DNA from: Methylobacterium sp. WL1
GTDB taxonomy: Bacteria; Pseudomonadota; Alphaproteobacteria; Rhizobiales; Beijerinckiaceae
Assembly: GCF_008000895.1 (NCBI RefSeq)
Contig: NZ_CP042823.1
Coordinates: 806,001 to 870,000 of the forward strand
Reading direction: 5' to 3'
DNA: 64,000 bases
The notes under the pieces were generated by a model. The model ran no database searches and was not told the origin of the DNA. It was given only the letters and a program-made list of their open reading frames with translations. The position numbers were made by a program, and so were the translations under genes. Shown piece by piece: positions 20,573 to 45,941 of this stretch; position 1 is the first letter of the stretch, and the number at the start of each line of letters is the position of its first letter.

Positions 20573-21664
<1,092 letters not shown>

Positions 21665-21684
21665 CGAACGGCAGACAAGCGGAA

Positions 21685-21710
21685 TGCCAAAGGGCTGGAG
21701 CCCTTTGGCA
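21685..21710 (+). terminator. Perfect hairpin after recA
   Basis: Arms TGCCAAAGGGCT (21685-21696) and AGCCCTTTGGCA (21699-21710) pair perfectly around GG, 20 bases after the stop. No T run. Confidence 0.6.
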
Positions 21711-21806
21711 GGGTTCAGCGGGGTTCGAGCCAGTCTCGCGAGCCTCGCAGGGCTCCGCCTTGCACCCGAGAAAGGTCGATGACCCCCTAAAGCCTTGATC
21801 GTCCCA

Positions 21807-21840
21807 GGCCTGGATCGACCGCTCTCGCCCGATCCAGGCC
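21807..21840. repeat. Inverted repeat between recA and rpsQ
   Basis: Eleven-base arms GGCCTGGATCG (21807-21817) and CGATCCAGGCC (21830-21840) with a 12-base loop. It is one of three hairpins in 360 bases that otherwise hold no gene. Confidence 0.55.
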
Positions 21841-21851
21841 ACGCCCCAGAA

Positions 21852-21913
21852 ACGACAACGCCCGGCGCGAATCCGGCCCTATGAGGGTCGAGCTTCGTCC
21901 GGGCGTTTGTCGT
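21852..21913 (-). terminator. Long hairpin after rpsQ
   Basis: Arms 21899-21913 (CCGGGCGTTTGTCGT) and 21852-21865 pair with one bulged base and a 33-base loop. It lies 112 bases after the rpsQ stop and probably ends the leftward S10 operon. Confidence 0.5.
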
Positions 21914-22024
21914 ACTGAACGCCGGGTAGGGAAGAAAGCACCGCATCCGGTGCAACGTCCCGACCGTCCAACTTCCAGCTACGTCGAGGCGGACGCGGAA
22001 ACCCGCAGCCGCCGCTTCCCTTGA

Positions 22025-22291
22025 TCAGGCGGCTTCGCCGGCCTCGGCGACCGCGGAGGCCTGGTCCTCGACCAGCTTCCAGGTCTTGGTCTTCGAGAAG
22101 GGGCGGCACTCCTCGATGAACACCGTCTGCCCGACCTTGGCGACATTCGCCTCGTCGTGGGCATGGTAGTTCTTCGAGCGGCGCACGGTCTTCTTCATCA
22201 CCGGGTGAGTGAAGCGACGCTCCACCTTCACCACGATGGTCTTCTCGCCCTTGTCGCTGACGACGGTGCCCTGCAGGACGCGCTTCGGCAT
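22025..22291 (-). CDS. rpsQ: 30S ribosomal protein S17
   Basis: 88 residues. [20 protein letters not shown] begins the OB fold, and the family signature is [21 protein letters not shown]17 is an early 16S rRNA binder of the 30S body. The Ala/Glu-rich tail after residue 77 is a lineage extension. It is the last gene of the leftward block; normally rplN would follow directly, but rplN is 13 kb away on the other strand, so this is one edge of the rearrangement. Confidence 0.97.
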
Positions 22292-22311
22292 GGTGTTCTC
22301 CTAAGCCCCTG

Positions 22312-22527
22312 TCAGCTCTTGGACGCCTGCAGCGTCTTCGAACGCTGCAGGGTGCGGACGCGGGCGATGTCGCGGCGGACCTCACGGACGCGGGCGACGT
22401 TCTCGAGCTGGCCGGTAGCCCCCTGGAAGCGCAGGTTGAACTGCTCCTTCTTGAGGTTCAGCAACTCGTCGTTCAGCTGATCCGGCGACAACGCCTTCAG
22501 ATCAGACACTCTCTGGGTCGACTTCAC
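22312..22527 (-). CDS. rpmC: 50S ribosomal protein L29
   Basis: 71 residues: a two-helix protein with [20 protein letters not shown] and the signature [17 protein letters not shown]. It sits at the polypeptide exit on the large subunit near L23. It lies 12 bases after rplP and 20 before rpsQ in the leftward operon. The C-terminal tail ([10 protein letters not shown]) is slightly longer than the minimal family member. Confidence 0.97.
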
Positions 22528-22539
22528 GATATCCTCCGT

Positions 22540-22953
22540 TCAGTCGGCGATGCGTTGGACGACCCGCGTACGGATCGGGAGCTTGGCGGCACCGAGGCGC
22601 AGGGCCTCCTTGGCAATGTCCTCGGCGACACCGTCGACCTCGAACATGATCCGGCCCGGATGGACACGGGCGGCCCAGTAATCCGGAGCGCCCTTGCCCG
22701 AGCCCATGCGGACTTCGGTCGGCTTCGAGGAGACCGGGACGTCCGGGAACACCCGGATCCAGACGCGGCCCTGGCGCTTCATCTCACGGGTGATCGCGCG
22801 GCGGGCCGCCTCGATCTGCCGTGCGGTAACACGCTCGGGCTCGACAGCCTTCAGGCCGAACTGACCGAAGTTCAGCTCGAAGCCGCCCTTGGCCGCACCG
22901 TGGATGCGGCCCTTGAACTGCTTACGGAAGCGAGTCTTTTTGGGTTGCAGCAT
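22540..22953 (-). CDS. rplP: 50S ribosomal protein L16
   Basis: 137 residues, full length. It begins [19 protein letters not shown] and carries the signature [21 protein letters not shown]16 organises the A-site region and central protuberance of the 50S subunit. It lies 11 bases after rpsC in the standard S10 order. Nothing unusual. Confidence 0.98.
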
Positions 22954-22964
22954 GGCTTCCTACC

Positions 22965-23705
22965 TTACGCGTGCTCGCGGCGTCCGCGCTCGCGGCCGCC
23001 CTCGCCATCGCGCTCACGGCGTCCGCCGGAGCGGCCACCCTCTTCCTGGGCCTTCTTGTCCTGGGCCATCGGGTCGTGCTCAAGGATCTCGCCCTTGAAC
23101 ACCCAGACCTTGATGCCGCAGGTGCCGTAGGTCGTGAACGCCGTAGCGGTGCCGTAATCCACGTCCGCGCGCAGCGTGTGCAGCGGGACCCGGCCCTCGC
23201 GGTACCATTCCTGGCGGGCGATCTCGGCGCCGCCGAGACGGCCCGAGCAGTTGATCCGGATGCCCTCAGCACCGAGACGCATCGCCGACTGCACGGCGCG
23301 CTTCATGGCGCGACGGAAGGCGACGCGGCGCTCGAGCTGCTGAGCAATCGAGTCGGCCACCAGGGTAGCGTCGATCTCGGGCTTGCGCACCTCGACGATG
23401 TTGATCGTCACGTCAGCCTTGGTCATCGTGCCGACCAGCTTGCGCAGCTTCTCAATATCCGCGCCCTTCTTGCCGATCACCACGCCCGGACGACCCGAGT
23501 GGATGGTGACGCGGCACTTCCGGTGCGGACGCTCGATGACGATCTTCGAGACGGCGGCCTGCTTCAGCTGCTTCATCAGGGCGGCGCGAATGGCGACGTC
23601 CTCGTGCATCAGCTTGGCGTACTCGCCCTTGCCGGCGAACCAGCGGGAGTCCCAGGTCCGGTTGATACCGAGACGGAGACCGATCGGATTGACTTTCTGG
23701 CCCAT
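22965..23705 (-). CDS. rpsC: 30S ribosomal protein S3
   Basis: 246 residues. It starts [20 protein letters not shown]; the KH domain is seen as [18 protein letters not shown], and the C-terminal S3 domain as [22 protein letters not shown] sequence. S3 lies at the mRNA entry of the 30S subunit and has helicase activity with S4 and S5. The tail after about residue 220 is rich in Arg, Glu and Gly (two GGRERG-like pieces), as in other Rhizobiales. Confidence 0.98.
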
Positions 23706-23715
23706 GAGATCCTCC

Positions 23716-24102
23716 TTAAGCCGCTTCGGCCTGGCGGACTTCGCGAACCACGATGGTGAGGTTCGAGAAGGGCTTCAGGATACGCGCACCGCGGCCGCGG
23801 GCACGAGCGTGGAAGCGCTTGAGCACGAGGGCCTTGCCCACGAAGGCCTGGGTGACGACGAGATCATCGACATCCAGATCGTGGTTGTTCTCGGCATTCG
23901 CGATCGCGCTCTCGAGGCACTTCTTGACCTCGGTCGAGATGCGCTTGCGCGAGAACTGCAGCTCGGCCAACGCAGTGTCGACCTTCTTGCCGCGGATCAT
24001 CTGCGCCACGAGGTTCAGCTTCTGCGGGCTGACACGCAGCATGCGCGCAACTGCCTTCGCCTCGTTCTCGGGGAGCGCGCGGGGGGTGGCTTGCTTGCCC
24101 AT
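23716..24102 (-). CDS. rplV: 50S ribosomal protein L22
   Basis: 128 residues from [20 protein letters not shown] (ATG at 24102). The frame is open upstream, but that part overlaps rpsS and is not homologous. The extended loop with [20 protein letters not shown], which lines the exit tunnel and is a site of macrolide resistance changes, is normal. The start lies one base after the rpsS stop, indicating translational coupling. Confidence 0.97.
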
Positions 24103-24103
24103 C

Positions 24104-24382
24104 TCAGCGCCTCTTCGCCTTCTTGTCGGCCGCGTGCCCGTGGAAGGTGCGGGTCGGCGAGAACTCGCCGAACTTATGCCCCACCATCTCCTCGGAGACG
24201 TAGACCGGGATATGCTTCTGTCCGTTGTGCACACCGAAGGTGAGCCCGACGAACTGCGGGAGGATCGTGGAGCGGCGGCTCCAGATCTTGATGACCTCTG
24301 AGCGCGAGGAGCCCCGCGCCGCTTCGGCCTTCTTGAAGAGGTAGCCGTCGACGAACGGCCCCTTCCAGAGAGAGCGTGCCAT
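24104..24382 (-). CDS. rpsS: 30S ribosomal protein S19
   Basis: 92 residues from [15 protein letters not shown] (ATG at 24382). The signature [20 protein letters not shown] is complete. S19 with S13 forms the head of the 30S subunit and contacts the central protuberance. It lies 5 bases after rplB and one base before rplV. Confidence 0.97.
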
Positions 24383-24387
24383 AGCGA

Positions 24388-25224
24388 TTACTTCTTGCGG
24401 TTGTGGCGGCTGGACAGGATGAACACGTCGGTCCGCTTGTTGGACCGGGTCTTCTTCCCCTTGGTCGGCACGCCCCACGGCGTGACCGGGTTGCGGCCGC
24501 CCGAGGTACGGCCCTCGCCGCCGCCGTGCGGGTGATCCACCGGGTTCATGGAGACGCCGCGGTTATGCGGGCGCTTGCCGAGCCACCGGTTGCGCCCGGC
24601 CTTGCCGAGCGAGATGTTCATGTGGTCCGGGTTCGAGACCGCACCGACGGTCGCGAAGCACTGGCCATGGACGAGGCGCTGCTCGCCCGAGTTAAGCCGC
24701 AGCGTCACGTAGCCCTGGTCGCGTCCGACGATCTGGGCGTAGTTCCCGGCCGAGCGGGCGATCGCGCCGCCCTTGCCGATCTTCAGCTCGACGTTGTGGA
24801 TGATCGTACCCACCGGCATCGAGCCGACCGGACCGGCATTGCCCGGCTTGATGTCGACGTTCTCGCCCGTCACCACCTTGTCGCCCGGCTGCAGGCGCTG
24901 CGGAGCCAGGATGTAGCTCTGCTTCCCGTCGGGGAAGTTGATCAGGGCGATGAACGCGGTGCGGTTCGGATCGTACTCGATCCGCTCGACCGTCGCCGTC
25001 ACGCCGAGCTGCTCGCGACGCTTGAAATCGACGTTGCGCAGCACACGCTTGTGGCCACCGCCGCGGAAGCGGACGGTGATGCGGCCGAGGTTGTTACGGC
25101 CGCCGGAGGAGCTCTTGCCCTCCGTCAGCGCCTTCACCGGCTTGCCCTTGTAGAGCTCACGGCGGTCGACGAGCACGAGCTGGCGCAGGCTCGGCGTGAC
25201 CGGTTTGAATGTCTTCAAGGCCAT
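24388..25224 (-). CDS. rplB: 50S ribosomal protein L2
   Basis: 278 residues. It has both L2 domains, with the peptidyl-transferase-proximal segment [20 protein letters not shown] containing the conserved His. L2 is needed for subunit joining and peptide bond formation. Length and C terminus ([11 protein letters not shown]) are normal. It follows rplW by 25 bases. Confidence 0.98.
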
Positions 25225-25249
25225 CGGCTTGGATCCCTAAAACCCGTCC

Positions 25250-25546
25250 TCAGAGCCCGGTCGTGACGTCGATCGTGTGGCCCTCGGCCAGGGTGACGAT
25301 CGCCTTTTTCACGTCGGAGCGCTGCCCGCGGAGACCGCGGAAAATCTTCTTCTTGCCCTTGGTCACGAGGGTGTTCACCGCCGTGACCTTGACGTCGAAC
25401 AGCTTCTCGACCGCCTCCTTGATCTGAGGCTTGGTCGCCTTCGGGCCGACCCGGAAGACGACCTTGTTCTGTTCGGTCAGGTTCGTCGCCTTCTCGGTGA
25501 TGACCGGGGAGACGATGATATCGTAGTGGCGCGGATCGGCACTCAT
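25250..25546 (-). CDS. rplW: 50S ribosomal protein L23
   Basis: 98 residues, with [16 protein letters not shown] at the N terminus and the extended loop [21 protein letters not shown]23 is the docking site for trigger factor and signal recognition particle at the tunnel exit. Its start overlaps the last four bases of rplD (ATGA), a translational coupling. Confidence 0.97.
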
Positions 25547-26163
25547 TTGAAACGCTCCTCCAGCGCGTCGACAGCGGCCTTCGTCAGGACGAGCGTGTTG
25601 CGGCGCAGGATGTCGTAGACGTTGATCCCCTGCACGGGAAGGACGTCGATCTGCGGGATGGCACGCGCGGCGCGGCCGAAATTCACGTCGACCTCGGCAC
25701 CGCCGATGATCAGCGCGTTCGAAAGGCCCATCTTGCCGAAACGCTCGATGAGACCCTTGGTCTTGTGATCCTCGATCTTGATGTCGTCGACGACGATCAG
25801 GGTCGAGGACTTGGCCTTGGCCGACAGTGCGTGGCGCAGCGCCAGGGCACGGACCTTCTTGGGAAGATCGTGGCTGTGGTCGCGAACGACCGGCCCGAAG
25901 GCGCGTCCGCCACCGCGGAACTGCGGCGCCGAGGCAGCGCCGTGACGGGCGTTGCCGGTGCCCTTCTGCTTGTACAGCTTCTTGCGGGTGCGGTTCACGT
26001 CCGAACGGTTCTTCACCGCGTGGGTTCCAGCGCGCCGCTTGGCGAGCTGCCAGCGAACCATGCGCTGGAGGAGGTCGGCCCGCGGCTCAAGGCCGAAGAT
26101 TTCCTCGTTCAGATCGACTGAGCCGGCGCCGGCGCCGTCGAGAGTGGTGATATCGAGCTTCAT
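25543..26163 (-). CDS. rplD: 50S ribosomal protein L4
   Basis: 206 residues. The long tunnel loop is visible with [20 protein letters not shown] followed by [20 protein letters not shown]4 binds 23S rRNA early, and in gammaproteobacteria represses its own S10 operon; whether it does so here cannot be told. It begins on the last base of the rplC stop codon region (TGATG overlap) and overlaps rplW by four bases. Confidence 0.97.
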
Positions 26164-26900
26164 CAGGCGGTCTCCTCAGCCGCAGGGGCCTCGGGGGCGG
26201 TCTGGGCGGACTCGGTAGACGCGCCGTTCTCACGGAACTTGCCCGGCAGCGGAACGTCGGCGGGGAGCTTGCGCTTCACCGCGTCGCGGATCTGGATCCA
26301 GCCACCGGCGACACCGGGAACCGCGCCCTCGACCAGGATCAGGCCGCGCTCGGGATCGGTGCGCACGACGCGCAGGTTCTGGGTGGTGACCCGCTCGACA
26401 CCGAGGTGACCCGGCATCTTCTTGTTCTTGAAGGTCTTGCCCGGGTCCTGACGGCCGCCGGTCGAACCGATCGAACGGTGCGAGATGGACACGCCATGGG
26501 TGGCGCGCAGGCCGCCGAAGTTCCAGCGCTTGATACCGCCGGCGAAGCCCTTACCCGTGGTCGTGCCCGTCACGTCGACGAACTGACCCGGAATGAAGTG
26601 GTCCGCGGTGATCTCCGCGCCGACCGGGATCAGCGCGTCCTCGGACACGCGGAACTCGGCGAGCTTCTTCTTCGGCTCGACCTTGGCGACCGCGAAGCGA
26701 CCGCGCTCGGCCGCCGACACGTTCTTAACCTTGGCCTTGCCCACGCCGACCTGGAGGGCGACGTAGCCGTTCTTTTCGACGGTGCGGTGGGCCACCACCT
26801 GGCACTGATCGATCTTAAGCACTGTGACGGGGACATGCTCCCCCGCGTCCGTAAAGACGCGGGTCATGCCGACCTTCTGTGCGATGACGCCTGAGCGCAT
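26163..26900 (-). CDS. rplC: 50S ribosomal protein L3
   Basis: 245 residues. It begins [20 protein letters not shown] and carries the central signature [20 protein letters not shown], whose Gln-equivalent position near the peptidyl transferase centre is the site of methylation in some bacteria. The 20-residue Ala/Pro/Glu-rich tail is an extension typical of Rhizobiales. It follows rpsJ by 50 bases. Confidence 0.97.
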
Positions 26901-26950
26901 AGGTCTCTCCCTCGCGCGATGAAACGGTAAGCTCTAAATCCCGGCGGGAC

Positions 26951-27259
<309 letters not shown>

Positions 27260-27281
27260 AATCCTGAAACCTTGAGAGGGA

Positions 27282-27312
27282 CGGCGGGGGGTGCGAGGGC
27301 GTGTCCCCGCCG
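27282..27312 (-). terminator. Possible attenuator hairpin between tuf and rpsJ
   Basis: Arms CGGCGGGG (27282-27289) and CCCCGCCG (27305-27312) with a 15-base loop, in the 79-base gap. Without a T run it may only stabilise the tuf end or reduce read-through. Confidence 0.35.
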
Positions 27313-27338
27313 CGCCCTGCTAAGGATGCTATCCTGGC

Positions 27339-28529
<1,191 letters not shown>

Positions 28530-28586
28530 CAGAGCCTCCTAGATTCGAAATCGTGTTGCGGATGAAGAGGTGGTACCGGCGTAGCC

Positions 28587-30662
<2,076 letters not shown>

Positions 30663-30692
30663 TGGATTGCTCCTGAGAGACGGCGGAACCGC

Positions 30693-31163
30693 TTACCAGC
30701 GGTAGTGCGAGAAGGCGCGGTTGGCTTCAGCCATCCGGTGCGTATCTTCCCGCTTCTTGACGGCGTTGCCGCGGTTGTTCGCGGCGTCGAGCAGCTCGGC
30801 GGAGAGCCGCTCGATCATGGTGCGGTCGTTGCGCGACCGGGCGGCCTGGATCAGCCAACGGATGGCGAGGGCCTGGCGGCGCTCGGTCCGGACCTCGACG
30901 GGGACCTGGTAGGTCGCGCCGCCGACGCGCCGGGAGCGCACTTCGATCATCGGGGCGACATTGTCGAGCGCAGCGCGGAACACCTCGATCGGGTTGGCGC
31001 GGGCGCGGTTCTCGACGATGTCGAAGGCACCGTAGACGATCCGCTCGGCGGTCGACTTCTTGCCCTCGTACATGATCGAGTTCATGAACTTCGTCAGCAC
31101 CACATCCCCGTACTTCGGGTCCGGGATGATCTCACGCTTCTCGGCAGAGTGACGACGGGACAT
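30693..31163 (-). CDS. rpsG: 30S ribosomal protein S7
   Basis: 156 residues: [20 protein letters not shown] at the start, and the rRNA-binding helices with [21 protein letters not shown]7 nucleates the 30S head, and in E. coli represses the str operon translationally. The normal neighbours rpsL (133 bases upstream) and fusA are kept. Confidence 0.98.
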
Positions 31164-31296
31164 CTCTTAAACTCTCAAACGAGTCTGACTTAAGCACCTC
31201 GCGCAGGCCGCCTGGGCTTTCTTGATGAAGCCGGCGACATCCTTACGAGGCCGTGGAAACGCATCTCTGCGACCGGATAAACTCCGGTCGCCGGTC

Positions 31297-31668
31297 TTAC
31301 TTCGGACGCTTAGCGCCGTACTTGGAACGGCGCTGCTTCCGGTTCTTCACGCCCTGCGTGTCGAGCACGCCGCGCAGGATGTGGTAGCGCACACCCGGAA
31401 GATCCTTCACGCGGCCGCCGCGGATCATGACGACCGAGTGCTCCTGGAGGTTGTGGCCCTCGCCAGGAATATAACCAATCACCTCGAAGCCGTTGGTCAA
31501 ACGGACCTTGGCGACCTTACGAAGGGCCGAGTTCGGCTTCTTCGGGGTCGTCGTGTAGACCCGGGTGCAGACGCCGCGCTTCTGCGGGCAAGCGTCAAGC
31601 GCCGGAACCTTGTTGCGGCTCCGCTGGATCTTCCGCGGCTGGGCGATCAGCTGGTTGATCGTCGGCAT
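31297..31668 (-). CDS. rpsL: 30S ribosomal protein S12
   Basis: 123 residues from [13 protein letters not shown] (ATG at 31668); the longer frame to 31749 is not homologous. The decoding-site loops [17 protein letters not shown] and [19 protein letters not shown] are complete, including the Lys positions where streptomycin-resistance changes occur (wild-type Lys here). In many alphaproteobacteria rpoB-rpoC precede rpsL; here low-GC DNA and transporter remnants do, so this is a second edge of the rearrangement. Confidence 0.97.
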
Positions 31669-31923
31669 CCTGTGCCCTCTTCCTCGGTCACCTTGGCCGG
31701 ACCGCCTAGGGCAGTCCGCAAAACGAATATGCGCCGGAGGTCCTGTCACAGACCCTCGGCGCGGTGTGGGCAGAGGAGCACGCTCATAACGAACGCGCTC
31801 GTACCTACGGATCTGACTTAGAGCGTCAGGCGATTTGAGCCTTCGGATCGCTCGAGGCGATCGCGGCGCCCAAGGGTCAAACCCTAGGGCCGTCGGCAGC
31901 CAATGGCCGTCCGAAGTGGCGCG

Positions 31924-31952
31924 CTTTTAGCCTCGGTTAACCCGCAGGTCAA
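31924..31952 (-). promoter_or_regulatory. Candidate promoter of the rpsL operon
   Basis: On the minus strand TTGACC (31952-31947), 17 bases, then TAAAAG (31929-31924). This predicts a start near 31917 and an untranslated leader of about 250 bases before rpsL. Another TTGACC (31880-31875) closer to the gene has no matching -10. The rest of 31669-32029 holds no gene. Confidence 0.5.
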
Positions 31953-32029
31953 TGCGTCGATCGCGATATTCTGGGCACCGCGCCGATCGAGTGATCAGCC
32001 CGGCCGACAAACGCATGTGCTCCCGCATC

Positions 32030-32695
32030 CTATGCGCTCGGTGCGATGGGTGGAAGGCCGAACCGGTTCGGCTCCGCATCGCCGGCTTTTGCCAGCACCT
32101 GTACGATGAACCAGATCCAAAATCCGAAGGTGGCAACGCCAGTCAGCAAGGCGAGAGTGATGAACAAGGCAGGAACCCCGATCGCATGGCGGCTGTAAGA
32201 TGAGAGAAAGCCGATCGATGCACAAAGGAAGGACAGCGGAGTGAGGACGTAAGGTACGGCGTTCAGCCAACCGGATCGATTGACATCATGGCAGCGCTTG
32301 ATGCCGAGAGCGAGGCCGCACCACGCCGTAACAAAAAAAACGATTATGTTCACGCCTGGAATAAGGCCAAGAACAATGCTTACAATCATCAGCACTAAAA
32401 ATCCAAAGTTCCAATATTCACGACGTCCGATGCGGCCATTTGGATTAAAATAGAAAGCAACCCAATCTCGCTGGCGAACAGCTTTACTGAAGGCCGGTGA
32501 GAAAACCGGGGCTTGACCGGGGACAGGGTATATTTCGCGTGCCTCACCATCGACAACTATGAAGTCCACCGCATGACCAGCCCGTGTGCTTTTACTGTTC
32601 AGATCTGAACTTGAGAAACGATAGCGCTGACCGTCATCGCCCGAGATTGCGCCCGGCGCATTTGCTTCGGGTACTGCCAGAATATATCCGCGCAT
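32030..32695 (-). CDS. DUF805 membrane protein with N-terminal OB-like domain
   Basis: 221 residues. Residues 1-60 (MRGYILAVPEANAPGAISGD, then GQRYRFSSSDLN and VDFIVVDGEAREIYPV) look like the small cold-shock-like beta barrel sometimes fused to DUF805 proteins. Residues 75-210 are a DUF805 domain: a helix starting FNPNGRIGRREYW, then four membrane segments with the motif GIKRCHDVNRSGWLN. Function is unknown. The gene has lower GC than the ribosomal genes on either side, suggesting acquisition. It is the first of the foreign-looking genes at the split of the ribosomal cluster. Confidence 0.8.
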   Translation of the reverse strand: MRGYILAVPEANAPGAISGDDGQRYRFSSSDLNSKSTRAGHAVDFIVVDGEAREIYPVPGQAPVFSPAFSKAVRQRDWVAFYFNPNGRIGRREYWNFGFLVLMIVSIVLGLIPGVNIIVFFVTAWCGLALGIKRCHDVNRSGWLNAVPYVLTPLSFLCASIGFLSSYSRHAIGVPALFITLALLTGVATFGFWIWFIVQVLAKAGDAEPNRFGLPPIAPSA

Positions 32696-33050
32696 TCGTC
32701 AAACCTCTCGTTTTTGCTCCCGTTATCATTGGGATGCAGAGATCACGACAATGTGCCTGGGAAACCGTTCAGTCAACGCGAGAGGAGATGTCGATTTTTG
32801 GTGATCACAAATGTATATATTGAATTTCAATACCATATTAATCGATATCATATTACTAAGGTGATACGTTACATTATCTGGCTCGCCCTTCTGTTATCTC
32901 ATCGATTGATATTTTTTAACGCCCATAAACTCATCTCATTTCATTCGAACAGTCTCGGTCATACTAATAGAGTTTTACTTTTTAATATTAATATGATTGA
33001 ATTCATATTTTGGCGAGAGAATCCTCCATTTCACAGTCAGTGCTTAAGCA
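32696..33050. other. Very low-GC spacer
   Basis: About 355 bases; 32800-33020 is among the most AT-rich sequence in the window. The long frame on the plus strand has no recognisable domain, mixes Tyr/Ile/His-rich low-GC translation with unrelated sequence, and is unlikely to be a gene. It lies between the DUF805 gene and the transporter remnants. Confidence 0.55.
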
Positions 33051-33398
33051 ATGTCGGCAGAGCGCACTCCTACAGCCGATAAGGGCACAACCAACGAGAC
33101 CGTCCTGCGCCGGGACTTTTCGAACGCGACCGTGGTGGCGTTCGACGATACGCCCTTCGCCTTCGCGGCCCTGCGCAACGGCAACGTTCAGGCGAACACG
33201 CAGGACGGATCGAAGCTCGTCAATCTGCTGGCCACGGCTCCCGACAAAGAGAATCACGAGGTTCCGGCCTTCTCGATTTCCAACGACTACATCGGCGCCG
33301 GCATCCCGAAGGGTGAGACCCGCCTCCGCGCAGTGGTGGACGAGACGCTCCGGGAGCTGGAGGCCAGCGCGAAGGCTGCGGCGCTCTACGACCGCTGA
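33051..33398 (+). pseudogene. C-terminal remnant of an amino-acid ABC transporter binding protein
   Basis: From about 33078 the frame reads as the C-terminal third of a periplasmic amino-acid-binding protein: DKGTTNETVLRRDFSNATVV, FAFAALRNGNVQANTQDGSK, then FSISNDYIGAGIPKGETRLR and a final helix ending AALYDR. The expected N-terminal two thirds, with signal peptide and ligand pocket, are missing and replaced by low-GC DNA. Glutamate/aspartate-type proteins are the closest match in style. It stands directly before the broken permease, as in an intact transporter operon. No function is expected. Confidence 0.75.
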
Positions 33399-33467
33399 TT
33401 CGGCCCGAACACGACGTAGCCGCTGCCGTGCCTGTTCCGGATCGGCGACCACAGCTAGCCGACGGCG

Positions 33468-34154
33468 GTGAGTCCCTTCGGCGATCTGCTCGCGCCGCGC
33501 TACCTGGTCTGGCTGCTGCAGGGTTTCGGGGTCACCCTGGTCCTGTCTGCGTCGGTGTGCGTGGCCGGAACGGCGCTCGGCCTTGCCTTCTGCTGCCCGA
33601 AGGAGGCGGGGGGCCGGTTCGTGAAGGCGCGGAGTACCGCCTTTATCAACCTCACCCGGAACACGCCGTCGCTGGTGCAGCTGCTCTTCTGGTACTTCGG
33701 CGCCGTCGCGCTGATGCCGTCCTGGCTCACCGCCTGAGTGAATAGCCCACACGGCCTGGCCCTGGGGTCGGCCACCCTGCACCGGCCGGCCTACGAGACC
33801 CTGGCCGGCTTCCTCGGGCTGACGCTCTACGCCGCCGCCGACATCGCCGGGGAATGCCGGGCTGGCCTCGACGGCGTACGGCCTGCCCAGCGGGAGGCCG
33901 CTTTGGCCCTCCACCTGATCGATCTCCAGATCTTCCGCCAGATCGCGTTGCCGCTGGCCCTGCGCTTCGCCTGGCTGCCGGGGGTCGGCCAATATCTCAA
34001 CACCATCAAGGACACGTCGCTGACCATGACCATCGGCCTCGCCGAGCTGTCCTATGCGTCCCGGGAGGTGGAGACAGAGACCTTCCTGGCCTTCCAGGTT
34101 TTCGGCATCGCGACGCTCCTGGAGAGCCTCGAATCGAGCCAGATCGCGCCGTGA
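33468..34154 (+). pseudogene. Amino-acid ABC transporter permease, interrupted by in-frame stop
   Basis: One frame carries a HisM/GltJ-type permease in two pieces. 33468-33734 encodes LLQGFGVTLVLSASVCVAGT and FINLTRNTPSLVQLLFWYFG; a TGA at 33735-33737 stops it, at a place where TGG (Trp) would fit. The same frame continues through 34154 with the permease signature ECRAGLDGVRPAQREAALAL and GQYLNTIKDTSLTMTIGLAE. The C-terminal membrane segment is cut off after FGIATLL. Premature stop and lost end mark it as dead. Confidence 0.8.
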
Positions 34155-34448
34155 ACGGGCGCGGCTCGCGGCAGCCTGCTCCCAGCACCGCGCCGAAGGG
34201 CCATCAGGTCGAGACGAACCGCCGGACCCGGTCCGGTCTCGACCGCACCGCCCTCGAGCACCGCGTGATTCGGCATCGTCGAGGCCATCCGGGATGGTGC
34301 ATCCAACGTGGGCGCCGGAACGGGGGCGTGCCGGATCGGGGCAGGGGCCCGGCAACACGGTCTACGGAAGATTAAAGCGAACCGTCGAAATGTCCCGATC
34401 GTCGGACGGCCCGTGGGCCGGCCTCTGTGTGCGTCGAGGATGTTGCGT
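34155..34448. other. Spacer after the permease remnant
   Basis: About 290 bases. Frames running through it are extensions of the next gene or antisense frames without domains. I see no promoter that I can define. Confidence 0.4.
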
Positions 34449-34826
34449 ATGGGTTGCGTCGCGGTCAGCAACGTCGTCCCCTTCCGGCGGATCGCCCCCG
34501 CCTCCGCGGCAGGCGAGCGGGACGCCCGCAACCGCCGCCGCAGCGAGCAACGCTCGCTCATGGACGCGGTCTACGCCACCGGCAGCATGATCGTCGCCGC
34601 CGAGGACCGTGAGATCAAGCTCACCGCGTCCCGCTTGCAGGTCTACGGCTTCCTGACGATCGAGGAGGTGACCGAGGAGGGCGGCATGCGGCGCCTGCGC
34701 CCCTCGGAGGCGATCCGGGCCCGGTCCGAGCGTCCGTGGCGCCTGTCGAAGCCGGCCTACGGAAGCGCCGTGACGATCCCGAGCCTCGACGACTTCCTGT
34801 TCGAATCAGCGGGCCAGCCCTTCTGA
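34449..34826 (+). CDS. Hypothetical protein
   Basis: 125 residues from MGCVAVSNVVPFRRIAP (ATG at 34449); an ATG three codons earlier is possible. A basic linker (RNRRRSEQ) is followed by a folded-looking part: LMDAVYATGSMIVAAEDREI, KLTASRLQVYGFLTIEEVTE, and an ending IPSLDDFLFESAGQPF. No membrane segment, signal peptide or known motif. I do not recognise it. It is the last gene before rplN, separated by about 475 bases. Confidence 0.5.
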   Translation: MGCVAVSNVVPFRRIAPASAAGERDARNRRRSEQRSLMDAVYATGSMIVAAEDREIKLTASRLQVYGFLTIEEVTEEGGMRRLRPSEAIRARSERPWRLSKPAYGSAVTIPSLDDFLFESAGQPF

Positions 34827-35182
34827 AGCCCTGAACGCCCGAGAGAGCCCAGCCGCCGCGCGAGGCTGCGCGGCGGACATGGCTGTGGTGTCGTTTCGAT
34901 TTGTCGGCCGCCCCGTCTCGCCGCCCAGCCGCCGCGGAGACATCCTGGCGGAAGCCGTCCTCGACGCGCCGGACGCACATCGATAAGCCCGTGGTCGGCC
35001 GCGCCGGGACACCACGCTGCGCCAGCCATCGAATCGCCCCGACCGCGCCCGATCCCCCCCGATCCCACCGGCGAATGTGTCGCGATCGGCTTGCCTTTCG
35101 GGGCAGCCCGTAGTATCCGCCCGGCCTTCGCGACATTTCGATGGGTGCTCGCACCCTGTGAACGCGGTGACCGCGCCGGCGT
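34827..35182. other. Spacer upstream of the rplN operon
   Basis: No gene is supported. It is GC-rich and, with the next 120 bases, must hold the promoter that drives the right half of the ribosomal cluster. TTGCCT at 35091 and TAGTAT at 35111 are only 14 bases apart, too close for a normal promoter. Confidence 0.45.
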
Positions 35183-35210
35183 CTCGGACGCCGCAAGCGC
35201 GGTCTATACC
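35183..35210 (+). promoter_or_regulatory. Candidate promoter of the rplN operon
   Basis: A -10-like CTATACC at 35204-35210 lies 16 bases after a weak -35-like CTCGGA (35183-35188), about 95 bases before rplN. The -35 matches poorly, so this is a guess at where a strong promoter must exist. Confidence 0.3.
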
Positions 35211-35302
35211 ATGAGCCGGGGACATCAGATCCCCATCAGGCGTCGTCCGCCGGGCAATACCGTCCGTGTGCGGAAACCCGCCTGAAACAAGGAGTCACGC
35301 AC

Positions 35303-35671
35303 GTGATCCAGATGCAGACGAATCTGGACGTCGCCGACAACTCGGGTGCACGCCGTGTGATGTGCATCAAGGTTCTCGGCGGGTCGAAGCGGAAGTATGC
35401 CGGCGTTGGCGATGTCATCGTCGTGTCGGTCAAGGAGGCGATCCCGCGCGGTCGCGTCAAGAAGGGCGACGTCATGAAGGCGGTCGTCGTTCGCACGGCC
35501 AAGGCCGTGAAGCGCGTCGACGGGTCGGTGATCCGCTTCGACAAGAACGCTGCGGTCCTGATCAACAATCAGAAAGAGCCGATCGGCACCCGCATCTTCG
35601 GACCGGTGCCGCGCGAGCTGCGCGCGCGCAACCACATGAAGATCATCTCGCTGGCGCCGGAGGTGCTGTGA
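35303..35671 (+). CDS. rplN: 50S ribosomal protein L14
   Basis: 122 residues starting [20 protein letters not shown], normal for L14, with the C-terminal signature [20 protein letters not shown]14 forms the bridge to the small subunit and binds RsfS. The start is a GTG or ATG context (GTGATCCAGATG); the listed one uses GTG at 35303. It heads the rightward half of the cluster, whereas rpsQ would normally precede it. Its stop overlaps the rplX start (TGATG). Confidence 0.97.
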
Positions 35672-35985
35672 TGGCCGCGAAGATCAAGAAGGGCGACAAG
35701 GTCGTCGTACTCACCGGCCGCGATTCCGGTCGCTCGGGCGAAGTCATCCAGGTTCTGCCGAAGGAAGGCCGCGCTTTCGTGCGTGGCATCAACCTAGTCA
35801 AGAAGCACCAGAAGCAGACGCAGAACCAGGAAGGCGGCATCATCTCCAAGGAGGCCGCCATCCAACTCTCGAACATCGCGGTCGCCGATGCCAACGGCAA
35901 GCCGACCCGCGTGGGTTTCCGCATCCTCGAAGACGGGCGCAAGGTCCGATTCGCCAAGAGCACGGGGGATCAGATCGATGGCTGA
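35671..35985 (+). CDS. rplX: 50S ribosomal protein L24
   Basis: 104 residues from [18 protein letters not shown], containing the KOW motif, and the signature [18 protein letters not shown]24 starts 50S assembly. The ATG shares a base with the rplN stop, and the end overlaps the rplE start by eight bases, so all three are coupled. Confidence 0.97.
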
Positions 35986-36544
35986 GGCCGACAAGAACGC
36001 CTACACCCCGCGCCTGCGCAAGCACTACGACGAAGTGGTGCGCCAGAAGCTGATCGAGGAGTTCGGGTACAAGAACCCGATGCAGGTCCCGCAGATCGAG
36101 AAGATCGTCATCAACATGGGCGTCGGCGAGTCCACCGCTGACTCCAAGAAGGCGACCGTGGCGGCTGGCGACCTCGCGCTCATCGCCGGCCAGAAGCCGG
36201 TGATCACCCGGGCCCGCAAGGCCATCGCGACCTTCAAGGTCCGTGAAGGCATGCCGATCGGTTGCAAGGTGACGCTGCGCAAGCAGCGCATGTACGAGTT
36301 CATGGATCGCCTGATCACGATCGCGCTGCCGCGCGTCCGCGATTTCCGCGGCCTGAACCCGCGCTCGTTCGACGGCCGCGGCAACTACGCCCTGGGTCTC
36401 AAGGAGCACCTCGTGTTCCCGGAGATCTCTTACGACAAGGCCGAGCAGATGTGGGGCATGGACATCGTCGTGGCGACCACCGCCCAGACTGATGCCGAGG
36501 CCAAGGCACTGCTCGCCGCCTTCCAGTTCCCGTTCCGGCAGTGA
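35978..36544 (+). CDS. rplE: 50S ribosomal protein L5
   Basis: 188 residues from [20 protein letters not shown] (ATG at 35978). [19 protein letters not shown] and the Pro/Phe-rich loop [19 protein letters not shown] are conserved. L5 binds 5S rRNA and contacts P-site tRNA. It overlaps the rplX end; frames extending further upstream are not homologous. Confidence 0.97.
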
Positions 36545-36584
36545 GGCCCTCGCGCCTCATACGCGGACACCGGAGATAGACCAC

Positions 36585-36890
36585 ATGTCGAAGAAAAGCT
36601 CAGTCGAGAAGAATGAGGCCCGCAAGACGCTGGTGAAGCGTTTCGCGGCCAAGCGGAAGGCGCTGCTGGACATCGCCAACAACGACACCCTCGAGATGGA
36701 GGAGCGCTTCGAGGCGCGCCTTAAGCTCGCGGAACTGCCGCGCAACTCGTCGGCCACCCGCATCCGCAACCGCTGCGGCATGACTGGCCGGCCCCGCGCG
36801 TTCTATCGCAAGATGGGCATCTCGCGCATCGCGCTGCGGGAGCTTGGCAACCGGGGCCTGATCCCCGGCCTGGTCAAGTCGAGCTGGTAA
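36585..36890 (+). CDS. rpsN: 30S ribosomal protein S14, zinc-free long form
   Basis: 101 residues from [20 protein letters not shown] (ATG at 36585). This is the long form without zinc-binding Cys residues: only one Cys is present in the segment [21 protein letters not shown]14 is a late-assembling head protein. It lies 40 bases after rplE and 10 before rpsH. Confidence 0.97.
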
Positions 36891-36900
36891 GGAGGTCCCC

Positions 36901-37296
36901 ATGGTCAACGATCCCGTGGGTGACATGCTCACCCGTATCCGCAACGGCCAGCTTCGCCGTCGCAACGTCGTTCAGACACCCGGCTCGCGCCTGCGCGCCA
37001 ACGTCCTGAACGTCCTGAAGTCCGAGGGCTACATCCGCGACTACGCGGCGACCGACCTCGGCAACGGCCGTACCGAGTTCGCCATCGAGCTCAAGTACTA
37101 CGACGGCCGCCCGGTGATCCGCGAAATCAAGCGCGTTTCGAAGCCGGGTCGTCGGGTCTACTCGTCGGTCGGTGATCTGCCGCACGTGGCCGACGGCCTC
37201 GGCGTCACCATCGTCTCCACACCGCAGGGCGTCATGGCCGACCACGAGGCGCGTGAGCGCAACGTCGGCGGTGAAGTGCTCTGCACCGTATTCTGA
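36901..37296 (+). CDS. rpsH: 30S ribosomal protein S8
   Basis: 131 residues: [17 protein letters not shown] at the start, and the C-terminal signature [21 protein letters not shown]8 binds the central domain of 16S rRNA, and in E. coli represses the spc operon. GGAGG stands 5 bases before the ATG. Confidence 0.98.
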
Positions 37297-37318
37297 TCGG
37301 GACGGAGGAGGTTATCCC

Positions 37319-37852
37319 ATGTCTCGCGTAGGCAAGAAGCCCGTTCCCGTGCCGGCCGGCGTCACCGCCACCGTCACCGGTCAGACGGTGAAGATGAAGG
37401 GCTCTAAGGGCGAGCTGCAGTTCGACGTCCCCACGCTGGTCAGCGTGGAGATGAAGGACGGCGCGATCTCGGTCGAGCCGATCAACCAGTCCAAGCCGGC
37501 CCGTTCCCTGTGGGGCACGTCGCGGGCTCAGATCGCCAACATCGCCGAGGGCGTGTCGAAGGGCTTCGAAAAGAAGCTTGAGATCACGGGCGTCGGTTAT
37601 CGTGCGGCGATGGCCGGTAAGGCCCTCAAGCTGTCGCTCGGCTACAGCCACGACATCGAGTACGCGATCCCCGCCGGGATCACGATCGTTACCCCGAAGC
37701 CCACCGAGATCACGATCACCGGGATCAACCGCCAGCAGGTCGGTCAGGTCGCCGCCGAGATCCGCGATTACCGCGGACCCGAGCCCTACAAGGGCAAGGG
37801 CGTGAAGTACGCGGGCGAGTTCATCTTCCGCAAGGAAGGCAAGAAGAAGTAA
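37319..37852 (+). CDS. rplF: 50S ribosomal protein L6
   Basis: 177 residues from [15 protein letters not shown] (ATG at 37319). It has two related domains and the signature [21 protein letters not shown]6 lies near the elongation-factor binding site. GGAGGAGG precedes the start, and the gene is followed 10 bases later by rplR. Confidence 0.98.
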
Positions 37853-37862
37853 GGAGGGCATC

Positions 37863-38225
37863 ATGTCTCGCAAGCTCGAAGCCCTCGATCGCCGCAAGGC
37901 GCGCGTCCGTCGCGCGCTGCGGGCGGCCGCCAACGGCCGTCCGCGGCTCTCGGTGTTCCGCTCGTCGAAGCAGATCTACGTGCAGGTCATCGACGACGTC
38001 GCCGGCAAGACGCTGGCCGCCGCCTCGTCGATCGACAAGGCACTCAAGGGTGAACTCAAGACCGGCGCCGATGTCGCCGCCGCCAAGGCGGTGGGCAAGC
38101 TGGTGGCCGAGCGCGCCAAGGCCGCGGGCGTCACGAAGGTGATCTTCGACCGCTCCGGCTACATCTACCACGGCCGCGTCGCAGCCGTGGCCGAGGCCGC
38201 CCGCGAAGGCGGCCTGGAGTTCTAA
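37863..38225 (+). CDS. rplR: 50S ribosomal protein L18
   Basis: 120 residues, [19 protein letters not shown] to the C-terminal [21 protein letters not shown]18 binds 5S rRNA with L5 and L25. The gap to rpsE is 113 bases, unusually wide for this operon, and contains a hairpin. Confidence 0.98.
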
Positions 38226-38268
38226 GGGAACTCACCCCGCGCGGCGTGATACCCGCGCGGCCATTCCC
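38226..38268 (+). repeat. Intergenic hairpin between rplR and rpsE
   Basis: An outer stem GGGAA/TTCCC (38226-38230 with 38264-38268) encloses an inner stem of two CCGCGCGG copies (38237-38244, 38253-38260). No T run follows. It may be an RNA processing or regulatory element. Confidence 0.45.
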
Positions 38269-38338
38269 TCCCGTTTCCGGCGAGGGGAATCGAGCGAGCG
38301 GGTCCGAGGATCCGCGCTAGTGAGATAGGTTAGACAAC

Positions 38339-38926
38339 ATGGCACGTGAACGGGAAGGCGGGGGCCGCGGCCGCCGCGACGAGCGCGAGGAGCGCGACAG
38401 CGAATTCGTGGACAAGCTCGTCCACATCAACCGCGTCGCCAAGGTGGTGAAGGGTGGCCGTCGCTTCGGCTTCGCAGCCCTCGTCGTCGTCGGCGACCAG
38501 AAGGGCCGCGTCGGCTTCGGCCACGGCAAGGCCCGTGAGGTGCCTGAGGCGATCCGCAAGGCGACCGAGGCGGCCAAGCGCGGCCTGATCCGGGTGTCGC
38601 TGCGCGAGGGTCGGACCCTGCACCACGACGTGAACGGCCGCCACGGCGCCGGCAAGGTGATCCTCCGTGCGGCTCCGCAGGGTACCGGCATCATCGCCGG
38701 CGGCCCGATGCGCGCGGTGTTCGAGACGCTCGGCATGCAGGACGTTGTCGCGAAGTCGCTCGGCTCCTCCAACCCCTACAACCTCGTGCGCGCCACCTTC
38801 GAGGCGCTTAAGAACGAGGACAGCCCGCGCTCCGTGGCGGCCCGCCGCGGCATCAAGGTTTCGAGCCTCCAGGCCCGTCGCCGCGACGCCGATCCGGCCG
38901 ACCAGTCCGAAGCTGCGGTCGCGTAA
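38339..38926 (+). CDS. rpsE: 30S ribosomal protein S5
   Basis: 195 residues. A charged N-terminal extension ([20 protein letters not shown]) is followed by the double-stranded RNA-binding fold with [20 protein letters not shown] and the C-terminal domain with [20 protein letters not shown]5 helps decoding fidelity. It is followed after 12 bases by rpmD. Confidence 0.98.
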
Positions 38927-38938
38927 GGGGAGGGTCCG

Positions 38939-39130
38939 ATGGCACAGAAGACCGTCCGTATCGAGCAGATCGGCTCGCCGATCCGCCAGGAGGCCAGCCA
39001 GCGCCAGACGCTGATCGGCCTGAAGCTCAACAAGCTCCACCGCGTGTCCGAGCTGGAGGATACCCCCTCCGTGCGCGGCATGATCCGCAAGGTTGCGCAC
39101 CTCGTGCGCGTCCACGGCGACGTGGCGTGA
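38939..39130 (+). CDS. rpmD: 50S ribosomal protein L30
   Basis: 63 residues: [20 protein letters not shown], then [20 protein letters not shown]. It is the short bacterial form. GGGGAGGG precedes the start, and rplO begins 10 bases after the stop. Confidence 0.96.
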
Positions 39131-39140
39131 GGAGGCACCG

Positions 39141-39647
39141 ATGAAGCTCAACGAGATCAGCGACAATCCCGGCGCAACCAAGAATCGGATGCGTGTCGGT
39201 CGGGGCATCGGCTCCGGCAAGGGCAAGACCGCCGGCCGCGGCGTGAAGGGTCAGAAGGCCCGGACCGGCGTGTCCATCAAGGGCTTCGAGGGCGGTCAGA
39301 TGCCGCTGCATCGGCGCCTGCCGAAGCGTGGCTTCAACAACCTCTACGCCCAGGATCTGAACGAGGTGAACCTCGGCCGGATCCAGGAGGCGGTGGACGC
39401 CGGTAAGCTCGACAAGGCCGCGACCGTCACGGTCGACAGCCTCGTCACCGCCGGCATCATCGCCCGGGCCCGTGACGGCGTGAAGCTGCTCGGCGTCGGC
39501 GAGCTGACCGCGAAGCTCAGCTTTGAGGTCACCCGCGCTTCCAAGTCCGCCATCGAGGCGGTCGAGAAGGCCGGCGGCTCGGTCAGCGTCGCATTCGCCA
39601 CCGGCGTGTCGACCCGCGGCGGCGCCAAGGCCGAGGCCACGGCCTGA
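39141..39647 (+). CDS. rplO: 50S ribosomal protein L15
   Basis: 168 residues from [19 protein letters not shown] (ATG at 39141, after GAGGAGG). The Gly-rich rRNA-binding N terminus ([20 protein letters not shown]) is typical. Downstream, a hairpin and a T-rich terminator separate it from secY, so the transcript may partly end here. Confidence 0.97.
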
Positions 39648-39665
39648 CGGCCGGCATGGGAGCGA

Positions 39666-39693
39666 CGCGGGGCCCCGTTGCACGGTCCCCGCG
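39666..39693 (+). repeat. First hairpin after rplO
   Basis: CGCGGGG (39666-39672) pairs with CCCCGCG (39687-39693); the inner CCG/CGG extends the stem around TTGCA. Confidence 0.45.
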
Positions 39694-39717
39694 CACCCTT
39701 TAAGCCGATCCTTCGAG

Positions 39718-39750
39718 CGGCGGCCCTGCGACCACGCGGGCCGCCGTTTT
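39718..39750 (+). terminator. Intrinsic terminator between rplO and secY
   Basis: Perfect 9-base arms CGGCGGCCC (39718-39726) and GGGCCGCCG (39738-39746) with an 11-base loop, followed directly by TTTT. This is the best-formed terminator in the ribosomal cluster, and it lies inside the classical spc operon, 71 bases after rplO and 52 before secY. Confidence 0.6.
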
Positions 39751-39801
39751 CAATTCATCCGGGCGCCGTTCGCCCGGCGACACTCCCAGGACGCGACGCT
39801 T

Positions 39802-41148
39802 ATGGCCTCAGCCGCCGAGCAGCTTGCCGCCAACCTCAATTTCGGTGCCATCGCGAAGGCCGATGAGCTGAAGAAGCGCATCTGGTTCACGCTCGGCGCC
39901 CTCGTGGTGTTCCGGCTGGGCACCTACATCCCGATCCCCGGCATCGATCCGGAGCAGTTCGCCCGGAACTTCCAGCAGCAGGCCGGCGGCGTGCTCGGGC
40001 TGTTCAACATGTTCTCCGGCGGTGCCGTCGAGCGCATGGCGATCTTCGCCCTCAACATCATGCCGTACATCTCGGCCTCGATCATCGTTCAGCTGCTCAC
40101 CTCGGTGATCCCGAGCCTGGAAGCGCTGAAGAAGGAGGGTGAGTCCGGCCGTAAGGTGATCAACCAGTACACCCGCTACCTCACGGTGGTGCTGGCGCTT
40201 GTGCAGTCCTGGGGCATCGCGATCGGTCTCCAGAGCTCGTCCGCGGCCATCGATCCCGGCCCGTTCTTCCTGGCCTCGACGGTGATCACGCTGACCGGCG
40301 GCACCCTGTTCCTGATGTGGGTCGGCGAGCAGATCACCTCGCGCGGCATCGGCAACGGCTCGTCGCTGATCATCTTCGCCGGCATCGTCGCCCACCTCCC
40401 GGTCGCGATCGCGGGCGCTCTCGAGCTCGGCCGCACCGGCGCGCTATCGCCGATCATCATCCTGGGCGTCGCCGTGGCGGCCGTGGTGTTGGTCTACTTC
40501 ATCGTGTTCATGGAGCGCGCCCAGCGCCGCCTGCTCATCAATTACCCGAAGCGCCAGGTCGGCAACCGCATGTACGAGGGCCAGACCTCGTTCCTGCCGT
40601 TGAAGCTCAACACGTCGGGTGTGATCCCGCCGATCTTCGCCTCGTCGCTCCTGCTCCTGCCGGCCACCGCGGCGAGCTTCTCCGCCAATGGCGGCAGCAC
40701 CGGCTGGCTTGGCACCGTGACGGCCTATCTGGGCCACGGGACGCCACTGTTCATGGCGCTCTACGCGGCGCTGATCATCTTCTTCACGTTCTTCTACACC
40801 GCAGTGGTCTTCAATCCGCAGGAGACGGCCGACAACCTGAAGAAGCATGGCGGCTTCATCCCGGGCATCCGTCCGGGCGAGCGCACCGCGGCCTTCATCG
40901 ACAAGGTGCTGACCCGGATCACGGTGATCGGCGCCCTGTACCTGACTCTCGTCTGCCTCTGCCCCGAGATCCTGTCGTCCTACGCCTCGGCGAGCCTTGG
41001 CTTCGGCGGGACCTCGCTGCTGATCGTGGTCTCGGTGACCATGGACACGGTCGCTCAGATCCACGGGCATCTGATGGCGCATCAGTACGAGGGCCTCGTG
41101 AAGAAGGCCAAGCTGCGTGGCGCCTCGACCACGCAACGCCGCCGCTGA
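39802..41148 (+). CDS. secY: Preprotein translocase subunit SecY
   Basis: 448 residues from MASAAEQLAANLNFGAIAKA (ATG at 39802), with ten membrane segments. GTYIPIPGIDPEQF and the plug region GGAVERMAIFALNIMPYISA are conserved; the cytoplasmic loop GFIPGIRPGERTAAFIDKVL interacts with SecA and the ribosome. SecY is the channel of the SecYEG translocon. It lies between a terminator and adk, and so may have its own promoter. Confidence 0.98.
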   Translation: MASAAEQLAANLNFGAIAKADELKKRIWFTLGALVVFRLGTYIPIPGIDPEQFARNFQQQAGGVLGLFNMFSGGAVERMAIFALNIMPYISASIIVQLLTSVIPSLEALKKEGESGRKVINQYTRYLTVVLALVQSWGIAIGLQSSSAAIDPGPFFLASTVITLTGGTLFLMWVGEQITSRGIGNGSSLIIFAGIVAHLPVAIAGALELGRTGALSPIIILGVAVAAVVLVYFIVFMERAQRRLLINYPKRQVGNRMYEGQTSFLPLKLNTSGVIPPIFASSLLLLPATAASFSANGGSTGWLGTVTAYLGHGTPLFMALYAALIIFFTFFYTAVVFNPQETADNLKKHGGFIPGIRPGERTAAFIDKVLTRITVIGALYLTLVCLCPEILSSYASASLGFGGTSLLIVVSVTMDTVAQIHGHLMAHQYEGLVKKAKLRGASTTQRRR

Positions 41149-41318
41149 GCCTGCTACAGAGGCGGGACGAAGCCACCGCCGCGCCCGCCTCTCAGCAAAA
41201 GGTCTGGATGCCTCCTGGCCCGGGACCGACTAGAAAAACCCGAGACGGGCGATGCCGGGGAGGCTTCGCCAACCGCCGCTTGTGCCCGTAGAGAGTCGGG
41301 CAGGACGAGGACAACGCC

Positions 41319-41921: not shown

Positions 41922-42103
41922 CCAAGACCGCCGGCACGCCGCATCATTCGGCGGCCGGCCTTGTGATGAATTCGAAGCGCGCGAAGCCGACGCTCAAGCA
42001 GCGGGCTGAGAGTGGTTCGATCCACGTTCGGTGGCGTAGACCTTAGGTTGGCGCAACGGCGATGATCGGCGATGGCGTCAGCGCCGTCGTTCTTTCAGGA
42101 AGA

Positions 42104-44362: not shown

Positions 44363-44372
44363 CGCGGCGGCG

Positions 44373-44735: not shown

Positions 44736-44807
44736 CTGTGCTCCCTCGGTGACCCTGGCATGGTCCGCGCGCGACGCATGGAAGCGCGGCCGATCGTTCA
44801 CCAGTCG

Positions 44808-44836
44808 TTGACATCTGGGCCCGCGCACGCTAGCAG
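44808..44836 (+). promoter_or_regulatory. Strong candidate promoter of rpsM-rpsK-rpoA-rplQ
   Basis: A perfect -35 TTGACA (44808-44813), 17 bases, then TAGCAG (44831-44836) as -10. The start would be near 44843, about 145 bases before rpsM. It explains how the alpha genes stay transcribed despite the insertion after adk. Confidence 0.6.
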
Positions 44837-45355: not shown

Positions 45356-45365
45356 TTCTCCACTT

Positions 45366-45916: not shown

Positions 45917-45941
45917 ACCAGTCGGTCTGACGGAGAAGCTC

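Follow-up and report, generated by a model that had tools for sequence, protein, structure and literature searches.

The supercluster of ribosomal-protein genes serves as a textbook example of gene order that is conserved in bacteria. We have analysed a stretch of 64,000 nucleotides of Methylobacterium sp. WL1 (positions 806,001 to 870,000 of contig NZ_CP042823.1; G000:C2:806001-870000 in our genome set, hereafter the window), in which the two halves of this cluster, str plus S10 and spc plus alpha, lie on opposite strands. How did such a layout arise, and how could it be tolerated? The source genome comprises 6.25 Mb in 2 contigs and is 99.99% complete. The inversion is real and clade-wide; the kind of event is already known, and this variant of it is new. 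Gene-order comparison supported a single in-place inversion of about 11 kb, which would reach from recA/orfP to rpsQ/rplN (the S10/spc operon boundary) and would have occurred in the ancestor of one Methylobacterium clade.

Matches to NCBIfam and Pfam families gave the order cckA, recA, then rpsQ to rpsL on the minus strand and rplN to rplQ on the plus strand. The minus-strand matches were S17 (22025-22291), L16, S3, L2 and S7, and those on the plus strand were RecA (20573-21664; TIGR02012, 578 bits), L14 (from 35303), L5, SecY, Adk, S13, S11, RpoA and L17; genes that were not domain-scanned were assigned by position and order. The inverted S10 operon (22025-27259, minus) reads rpsQ-rpmC-rplP-rpsC-rplV-(rpsS)-rplB-rplW-rplD-rplC-rpsJ. 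Of these genes, rpsQ, rplP, rpsC and rplB were identified by domain search, and the others carry names that we take to apply from their position, order and conservation. The str operon tuf-fusA-rpsG-rpsL (27339-31668, minus) is inverted along with S10; rpsG was found by domain search and rpsL by PF00164, and the genes placed by position and order are presumably tuf and fusA. The spc operon rplN-rplX-rplE-...-secY-adk (35303-41921, plus) keeps the original orientation, with rplN, rplE, secY and adk identified by domain search and the rest by order. The genes rpsQ and recA stand tail to tail, 360 bp apart, at the left inversion junction (21665-22024), and rpsL and rplN are separated by 3.6 kb; by domain positions, 13.2 kb lie between the S10 and spc halves on their opposite strands. 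The divergent layout had been read from this DNA by a first-pass annotation, and it was borne out both by these matches and by its recurrence in 28 of 111 genus genomes.

The genus genomes were sorted by coordinates and gene order, L14 being found in 109 of the 111 and S17 in 108. Comparison at the sequence level covered rplN and its surroundings in 109 genomes and, for the rpsQ side, 31 of the 42 genomes that were not collinear. Sixty-seven genomes were collinear. In the 28 that were divergent like the window, rpsL faces rplN, and the distance from recA to the rpsQ domain stays within 1.8 kb in all except G067 (27/28; 11.3 kb in G067). Seven of them hold both halves on one contig, including G070 (1 contig), G103 (2), G094 (3) and G098 (5). 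The other 21 showed the two junctions separately, with the rpsQ half sitting on a different contig, beside recA there. The fragmentation of these 21 and the position of rpsQ about 5 kb from the contig start in many drafts would be expected from an assembly or scaffolding artefact, in which tuf paralogues or repeats had misjoined the cluster. However, four of the seven genomes with both halves on one contig consist of 1 to 5 contigs, the recA/rpsQ and rpsL/rplN sides recur in other divergent genomes, and neither junction falls in tuf. We have rejected the artefact on the grounds of the 28 genomes and the seven unbroken cases, and find it hardly credible.

The remaining genomes of the genus showed further states. 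Nine were convergent (rpsQ> ... <rplQ ... <rplN, arrowheads giving the strand), and G037 has the same convergent junction sequence. In the single-contig G029 (L090, L179), rpsL, S10 and spc lie at three places, and the contig coordinates put 789 kb between S10 and spc. G077 consists of short contigs, yet has orfP, a small gene described below, before rplN, and recA facing rpsQ. In G099, rplN and rpsQ are on separate contigs; a contig of about 26 kb extends upstream of rplN, and no match to S10 genes was found in 8.5 kb upstream of that gene. The layout of G021 was unassigned, its upstream sequence being similar to that of the collinear G042, and G025 and G078 gave no L14 match.

The first-pass annotation had allowed that the layout might be standard in the whole family, and had proposed a comparison of synteny. 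Besides the 67 collinear genus genomes, this comparison gave 36 of 36 named loci collinear outside Methylobacterium/Methylorubrum (mainly Microvirga and Devosia), as well as 27 of 27 family loci outside the genus that bear the RNA leader discussed below. The divergent layout is thus confined to one clade of the genus. A search at the order level (130 genomes, 126 with a match) returned one match covering both proteins in 26 cases and, among the matches listed, 24 further pairs that were close and on the same strand (including G009 of the genus). The window was the only opposite-strand pair among the matches listed, to which about 75 of the 126 genomes did not contribute.

The history of the layout was read from the neighbouring lineages. 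On a tree of 24 proteins from 109 genomes, seven of which had less than half of the columns, the 28 divergent genomes together with G029 and G077 formed one node with a support of 1.0, and G028 was the genome nearest to the window. Two neighbouring groups comprise eight genomes; in two of these, recA and rpsL are on different contigs, and the other six all gave the order recA> <orfP rpsL> (6/6 sister loci) and, in the same genomes, rpsQ> followed by rplN>. The sister order is therefore recA> <orfP rpsL>...rpsQ> rplN>, and that of the window is recA> <rpsQ...<rpsL orfP> rplN>. The gene orfP (34308-34826, plus; no Pfam family, true start uncertain) is a passenger beside rpsL, and all 28 divergent genomes have it in the space from rpsL to rplN. 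In the sister genomes it is recA (window 20573-21664, plus), the left neighbour of the inverted block, that precedes orfP-rpsL. Since one inversion turns the sister order into the observed one, and since orfP moved with rpsL, one in-place inversion of about 11 kb would account for the layout. Its right junction would fall between orfP and the rplN promoter (34827-35090), as placed from the divergent and sister gene orders. Hence, the inversion proposed by the first-pass annotation found support in the sister gene order and in the passenger gene.

We have also considered a history in two steps, in which str+S10 and spc-alpha moved apart and were later rejoined in opposite orientation. The genus has a strongly reshuffled core gene order (PMC9364378), and G029 shows that secondary scatter occurs. 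Nevertheless, the sister clade has exactly the order expected from one inversion, including the passenger orfP, and two steps appear very unlikely.

The first-pass annotation had claimed that about 10 ribosomal genes needed a new promoter. Within about 230 bp upstream of rplN, we found strongly conserved columns in 109 genomes of all layouts. The pair TTGnnn-N16-18-TAnnnn was present there in 109 of 109 genomes, compared with 9.95 on average over 20 mononucleotide shuffles, a contrast that gives no probability because the genomes are related. Pairs with a spacer of 17 start at -211 to -226 before rplN in 108 of the 109, and at -242 in G032. The window carries TTGCCT-N17-TATCCG (35091-35119, plus), a pair conserved across genus genomes, as its putative spc promoter. 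On the S10 side, long GC-rich hairpins follow rpsQ in G042, G040, G038, G009 and others (15 genomes folded, no formal count), and in the window a terminator-like hairpin of the S10 operon lies at 21938-21957 (minus; two overlapping terminator-like sites, with a shuffle mean of 0.6). These features are best read as indicating that S10 and spc were separate transcription units before the inversion and that spc kept its own start. Because 108 of 109 genomes have the pair in this place regardless of their layout, the inversion seems to have needed no new promoter. The claim of a new promoter was not supported, the promoter-like pair and the RNA leader standing before rplN in collinear and rearranged genomes alike.

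Is the S10/spc boundary a preferred place for breakage? We have measured 26 neighbouring gene pairs across the genus (the str pairs in only 28 to 44 genomes), scoring as an insert any spacing more than 300 bp above the median. Inserts were found at rpsQ/rplN in 18 of 67 genomes, at adk/rpsM in 29 of 102 and at secY/adk in 1 of 105, and at none of the other pairs; the stretches rpsJ to rpsQ and rplN to secY had no enlarged junction in genus genomes. One rplW/rplB row of 95 was flagged by an automatic rule, but no genome had this pair on opposite strands or more than 3 kb apart. The break thus falls between operons and leaves them intact; the gene inserted in the alpha operon, described below, lies elsewhere than the break. 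A scan of 10 invading proteins at rpsQ/rplN in 9 genomes identified a patatin (G023), TadG/TadE (G039), an AAA ATPase (G049, G057 and G066), RtcB (G079 and G081) and a deaminase (G012); the protein of G045 was without a match. Invasion might have come before separation: several collinear lineages have varied rpsQ/rplN invaders, but at the divergent junction no remnant of an invader was identified.

Separate breaks at this boundary occurred in the M. extorquens group and in one further genome. In that group (L076, L099, L174, L182 and other loci), it is the spc-alpha half that has been inverted, and a breakpoint again lies in the rpsQ/rplN space. Sequence that lies past rplQ in the collinear G040 and G065 is split in convergent genomes, part of it being beside rplQ and part upstream of rplN. 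On the combined protein tree, the convergent genomes are placed apart; of the nucleotide trees, made with G107 and G099 absent, that of spc-alpha groups 9 of the 10 (0.987) and that of S10 does not. A segment of 965 bp past rplQ, common to G040 and G065, could not be matched in the junctions of G014, G038 and G075, and this tends to favour a single origin of the convergent inversion.

The link between spc and alpha was also broken. Seven of the 109 rplN loci were without rpsM, five of them being short contigs or without adk. In the single-contig G042 (L103), about 555 kb separate rpsM from the spc operon, and the two are on opposite strands; in the draft G083 (L143), rpsM is on another contig, though about 18 kb of contig follow adk. 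At least two separations of these operons have therefore taken place, one in G042, a sister genome that is collinear, and one in the divergent draft G083. In the window, they are linked with a 3-kb gene-carrying insert between them (41922-44986), which holds a GT61 glycosyltransferase gene (42104-43447, minus) and a small open reading frame (ORF; 44373-44960, minus). The alpha operon that follows, rpsM-rpsK-rpoA-rplQ (44987-48543, plus; domain search), carries a metallo-beta-lactamase-fold (MBL-fold) gene (45942-46814, plus) between rpsK and rpoA. Of 97 genus genomes, 93 have such a gene at this place within the operon, and it is missing in G010, G030, G050 and G051.

In the parts of Brandis 2021 that bear on this, rearrangements mostly break the links between operons and keep operons intact, foreign genes invade the inter-operon space, and the spc-alpha pair is concatenated in every genome analysed. 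The Methylobacterium break is alike in lying between intact operons and in the invasion of inter-operon space. It differs in occurring in an alphaproteobacterial genus (the word "Alphaproteobacteria" is absent from the text of Brandis 2021) and as an in-place inversion, which took opposite senses in two clades and struck the same S10/spc boundary in both; moreover, 29 of 102 genomes here carry an insert between spc and alpha, and in G042 and G083 the pair is split.

Taken with the layouts above, these data make it very probable that a block of orfP, str and S10 was inverted in place and was tolerated because the S10/spc space separates two self-contained transcription units. In this scheme, the block of about 11 kb (orfP, rpsL-rpsG-fusA-tuf and the S10 operon) would have been inverted in the clade ancestor by recombination of its ends, one breakpoint lying at recA/orfP and the other in the S10/spc inter-operon space. 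S10 would end in its own terminator-like hairpin, and rplN would retain the promoter-like site and structured leader with which spc begins. Across the genus, genes have repeatedly invaded that space and the operons have repeatedly separated there; fixation of the inversion could have been near neutral.

Several observations weigh against this reading. Only 7 of the 28 divergent genomes have both halves on one contig, and for 11 of the 42 non-collinear genomes the rpsQ side rests on coordinates. A strict sigma-70 consensus scan did not report the promoter-like pair of rplN. The 300-bp rule hides the MBL-fold insert inside the alpha operon, so that inserts do not all respect operon ends. In G043, G094, G098 and G103, which are divergent, and in G029, recA is on the strand of rpsQ, unlike in the rest of the clade; here recA itself seems to have undergone an additional flip. 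Finally, no inverted match of at least 11 bp was found between the two window junctions. As a recombination substrate, inverted repeats were thus discarded for the window; in the convergent type, the longest was 13 bp (G065) and G040 had none.

The inversion might alternatively have been selected, for instance by uncoupling S10/str from spc-alpha expression or by altering the encounters of replication with transcription. It has persisted through a clade of 28 species. The gene dnaA is at C2:469 and, if the origin is near it, the plus strand of the window would be the leading one and str+S10 would now be transcribed head-on in G000 and G070. But under the same assumption on the origin it is spc-alpha that would be head-on in G094, G098 and G103, so that no constant direction is favoured, and invasion without inversion also occurs in other lineages. 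We regard selection as unlikely. The first-pass annotation had expected changes of both strand and gene dosage: the strand does change, whereas dosage and distance to the origin are unchanged because the flip is local.

The structured leader is the most novel by-product of this work and the part most worth a bench test. It lies directly 5' of rplN (35210-35293, plus) and was described by an RNA model, R2, built without coding sequence. The score of the window, 98.4 bits, is high by construction, since its sequence went into R2; both G000 and G007 are part of the model. An earlier model, R1, contained 20 bases of the rplN coding start, gave mostly weak order-level matches (14/61) and was replaced by R2. 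Exactly one R2 match was present in 39 of 70 family genomes (25 of 43 genera), 24 of 37 sources were matched (7 by construction), and the only two matches among 111 order genomes were both in the family. The leader was immediately upstream of rplN in 30 of 30 loci, out of the 39 matches. Double changes were seen at 11 of 19 pairs (39 distinct sequences), and the covariation score was 0.239, against 0.108 for shuffled and at most 0.064 for slid controls; the alignment was fitted to the model, with 11 of its 42 rows used in building it, and these counts accordingly lean towards the model. The leader structure is conserved, as supported by covariation. In Rfam 15, the window had no match at the gathering threshold and three sub-threshold matches (E 0.37-1.6). 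We have also considered a leader peptide. A short frame is open in G000 by eye, its start is lost in G040 and the frame itself in G030; covariation favours RNA.

This element of 89 positions may be an undescribed, family-specific autoregulatory leader that makes spc self-contained and S10/spc a safe breakpoint, a proposal that we put forward tentatively, with the balance slightly against it. If true, it would explain why inversions and invasions pile up at S10/spc and none are seen inside S10 or spc. The leader resembles known ribosomal-protein leaders, such as that of E. coli S8/spc and those treated in the sections of PMC7247131 concerned, in being a covarying structured 5' leader directly upstream of an operon. 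It differs in standing before rplN, since S8 of E. coli acts at rplE according to the relevant part of PMC10931766. Eckert and Weinberg 2020 (PMC7247131) report 20 candidate ribosomal-protein leader RNAs in the part concerned, and "L14", "uL14" and "rplN" are absent from the text. As the corresponding passage of a 2024 review (PMC10931766) has it, spc regulation is unknown for B. subtilis or for species other than E. coli and V. cholerae. The leader RNA provides a handle on spc regulation outside these two species.

Strong reshuffling of core genes between Methylobacterium groups, with one well-conserved ribosomal cluster, is reported in the gene-order section of Leducq 2022 (PMC9364378), where the S10/spc split does not appear. 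Our data agree with that section on high rearrangement between groups of the same genus, and differ from it in that two clades have S10 and spc in opposite orientations and that rpoB is often far from rpsL. In G000, rpoB is at C2:5455511 and rpsL at C2:837300. The two genes are far apart in 11 of 18 genomes compared, 12.6 kb apart in G029 and adjacent in 6; in six collinear genomes (G013, G049, G009, G064, G105 and G051), rpoB rather than recA is near rpsL. No paper on this split or this leader was found among the titles and abstract starts listed by searches of an open-access library. Layouts in the genus range from collinear and invaded through divergent and convergent to scattered and spc-alpha separated, and some of them occur in cultivated species; the cost of a broken operon-operon linkage and of head-on ribosomal transcription thereby becomes testable.

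The space between rpsL and orfP has filled further. ABC-transporter ORFs are present there in 21 of the 28 divergent genomes and a DUF805 gene in 5; neither was detected in the six sister recA-rpsL intervals, and both were hence read as later insertions. In the window, the DUF805 gene is at 32030-32695 (minus; PF05656) and the ABC-transporter gene set, a shortened remnant, at 33051-34154 (plus; PF00528 slightly below the cut-off). The transporter is shorter here than in 20 relatives, and a second stretch matching the last ABC-transporter ORF is found in 20 clade members and not in the window. Alongside the shortened set, the window has an AT-rich stretch at 32700-34154.

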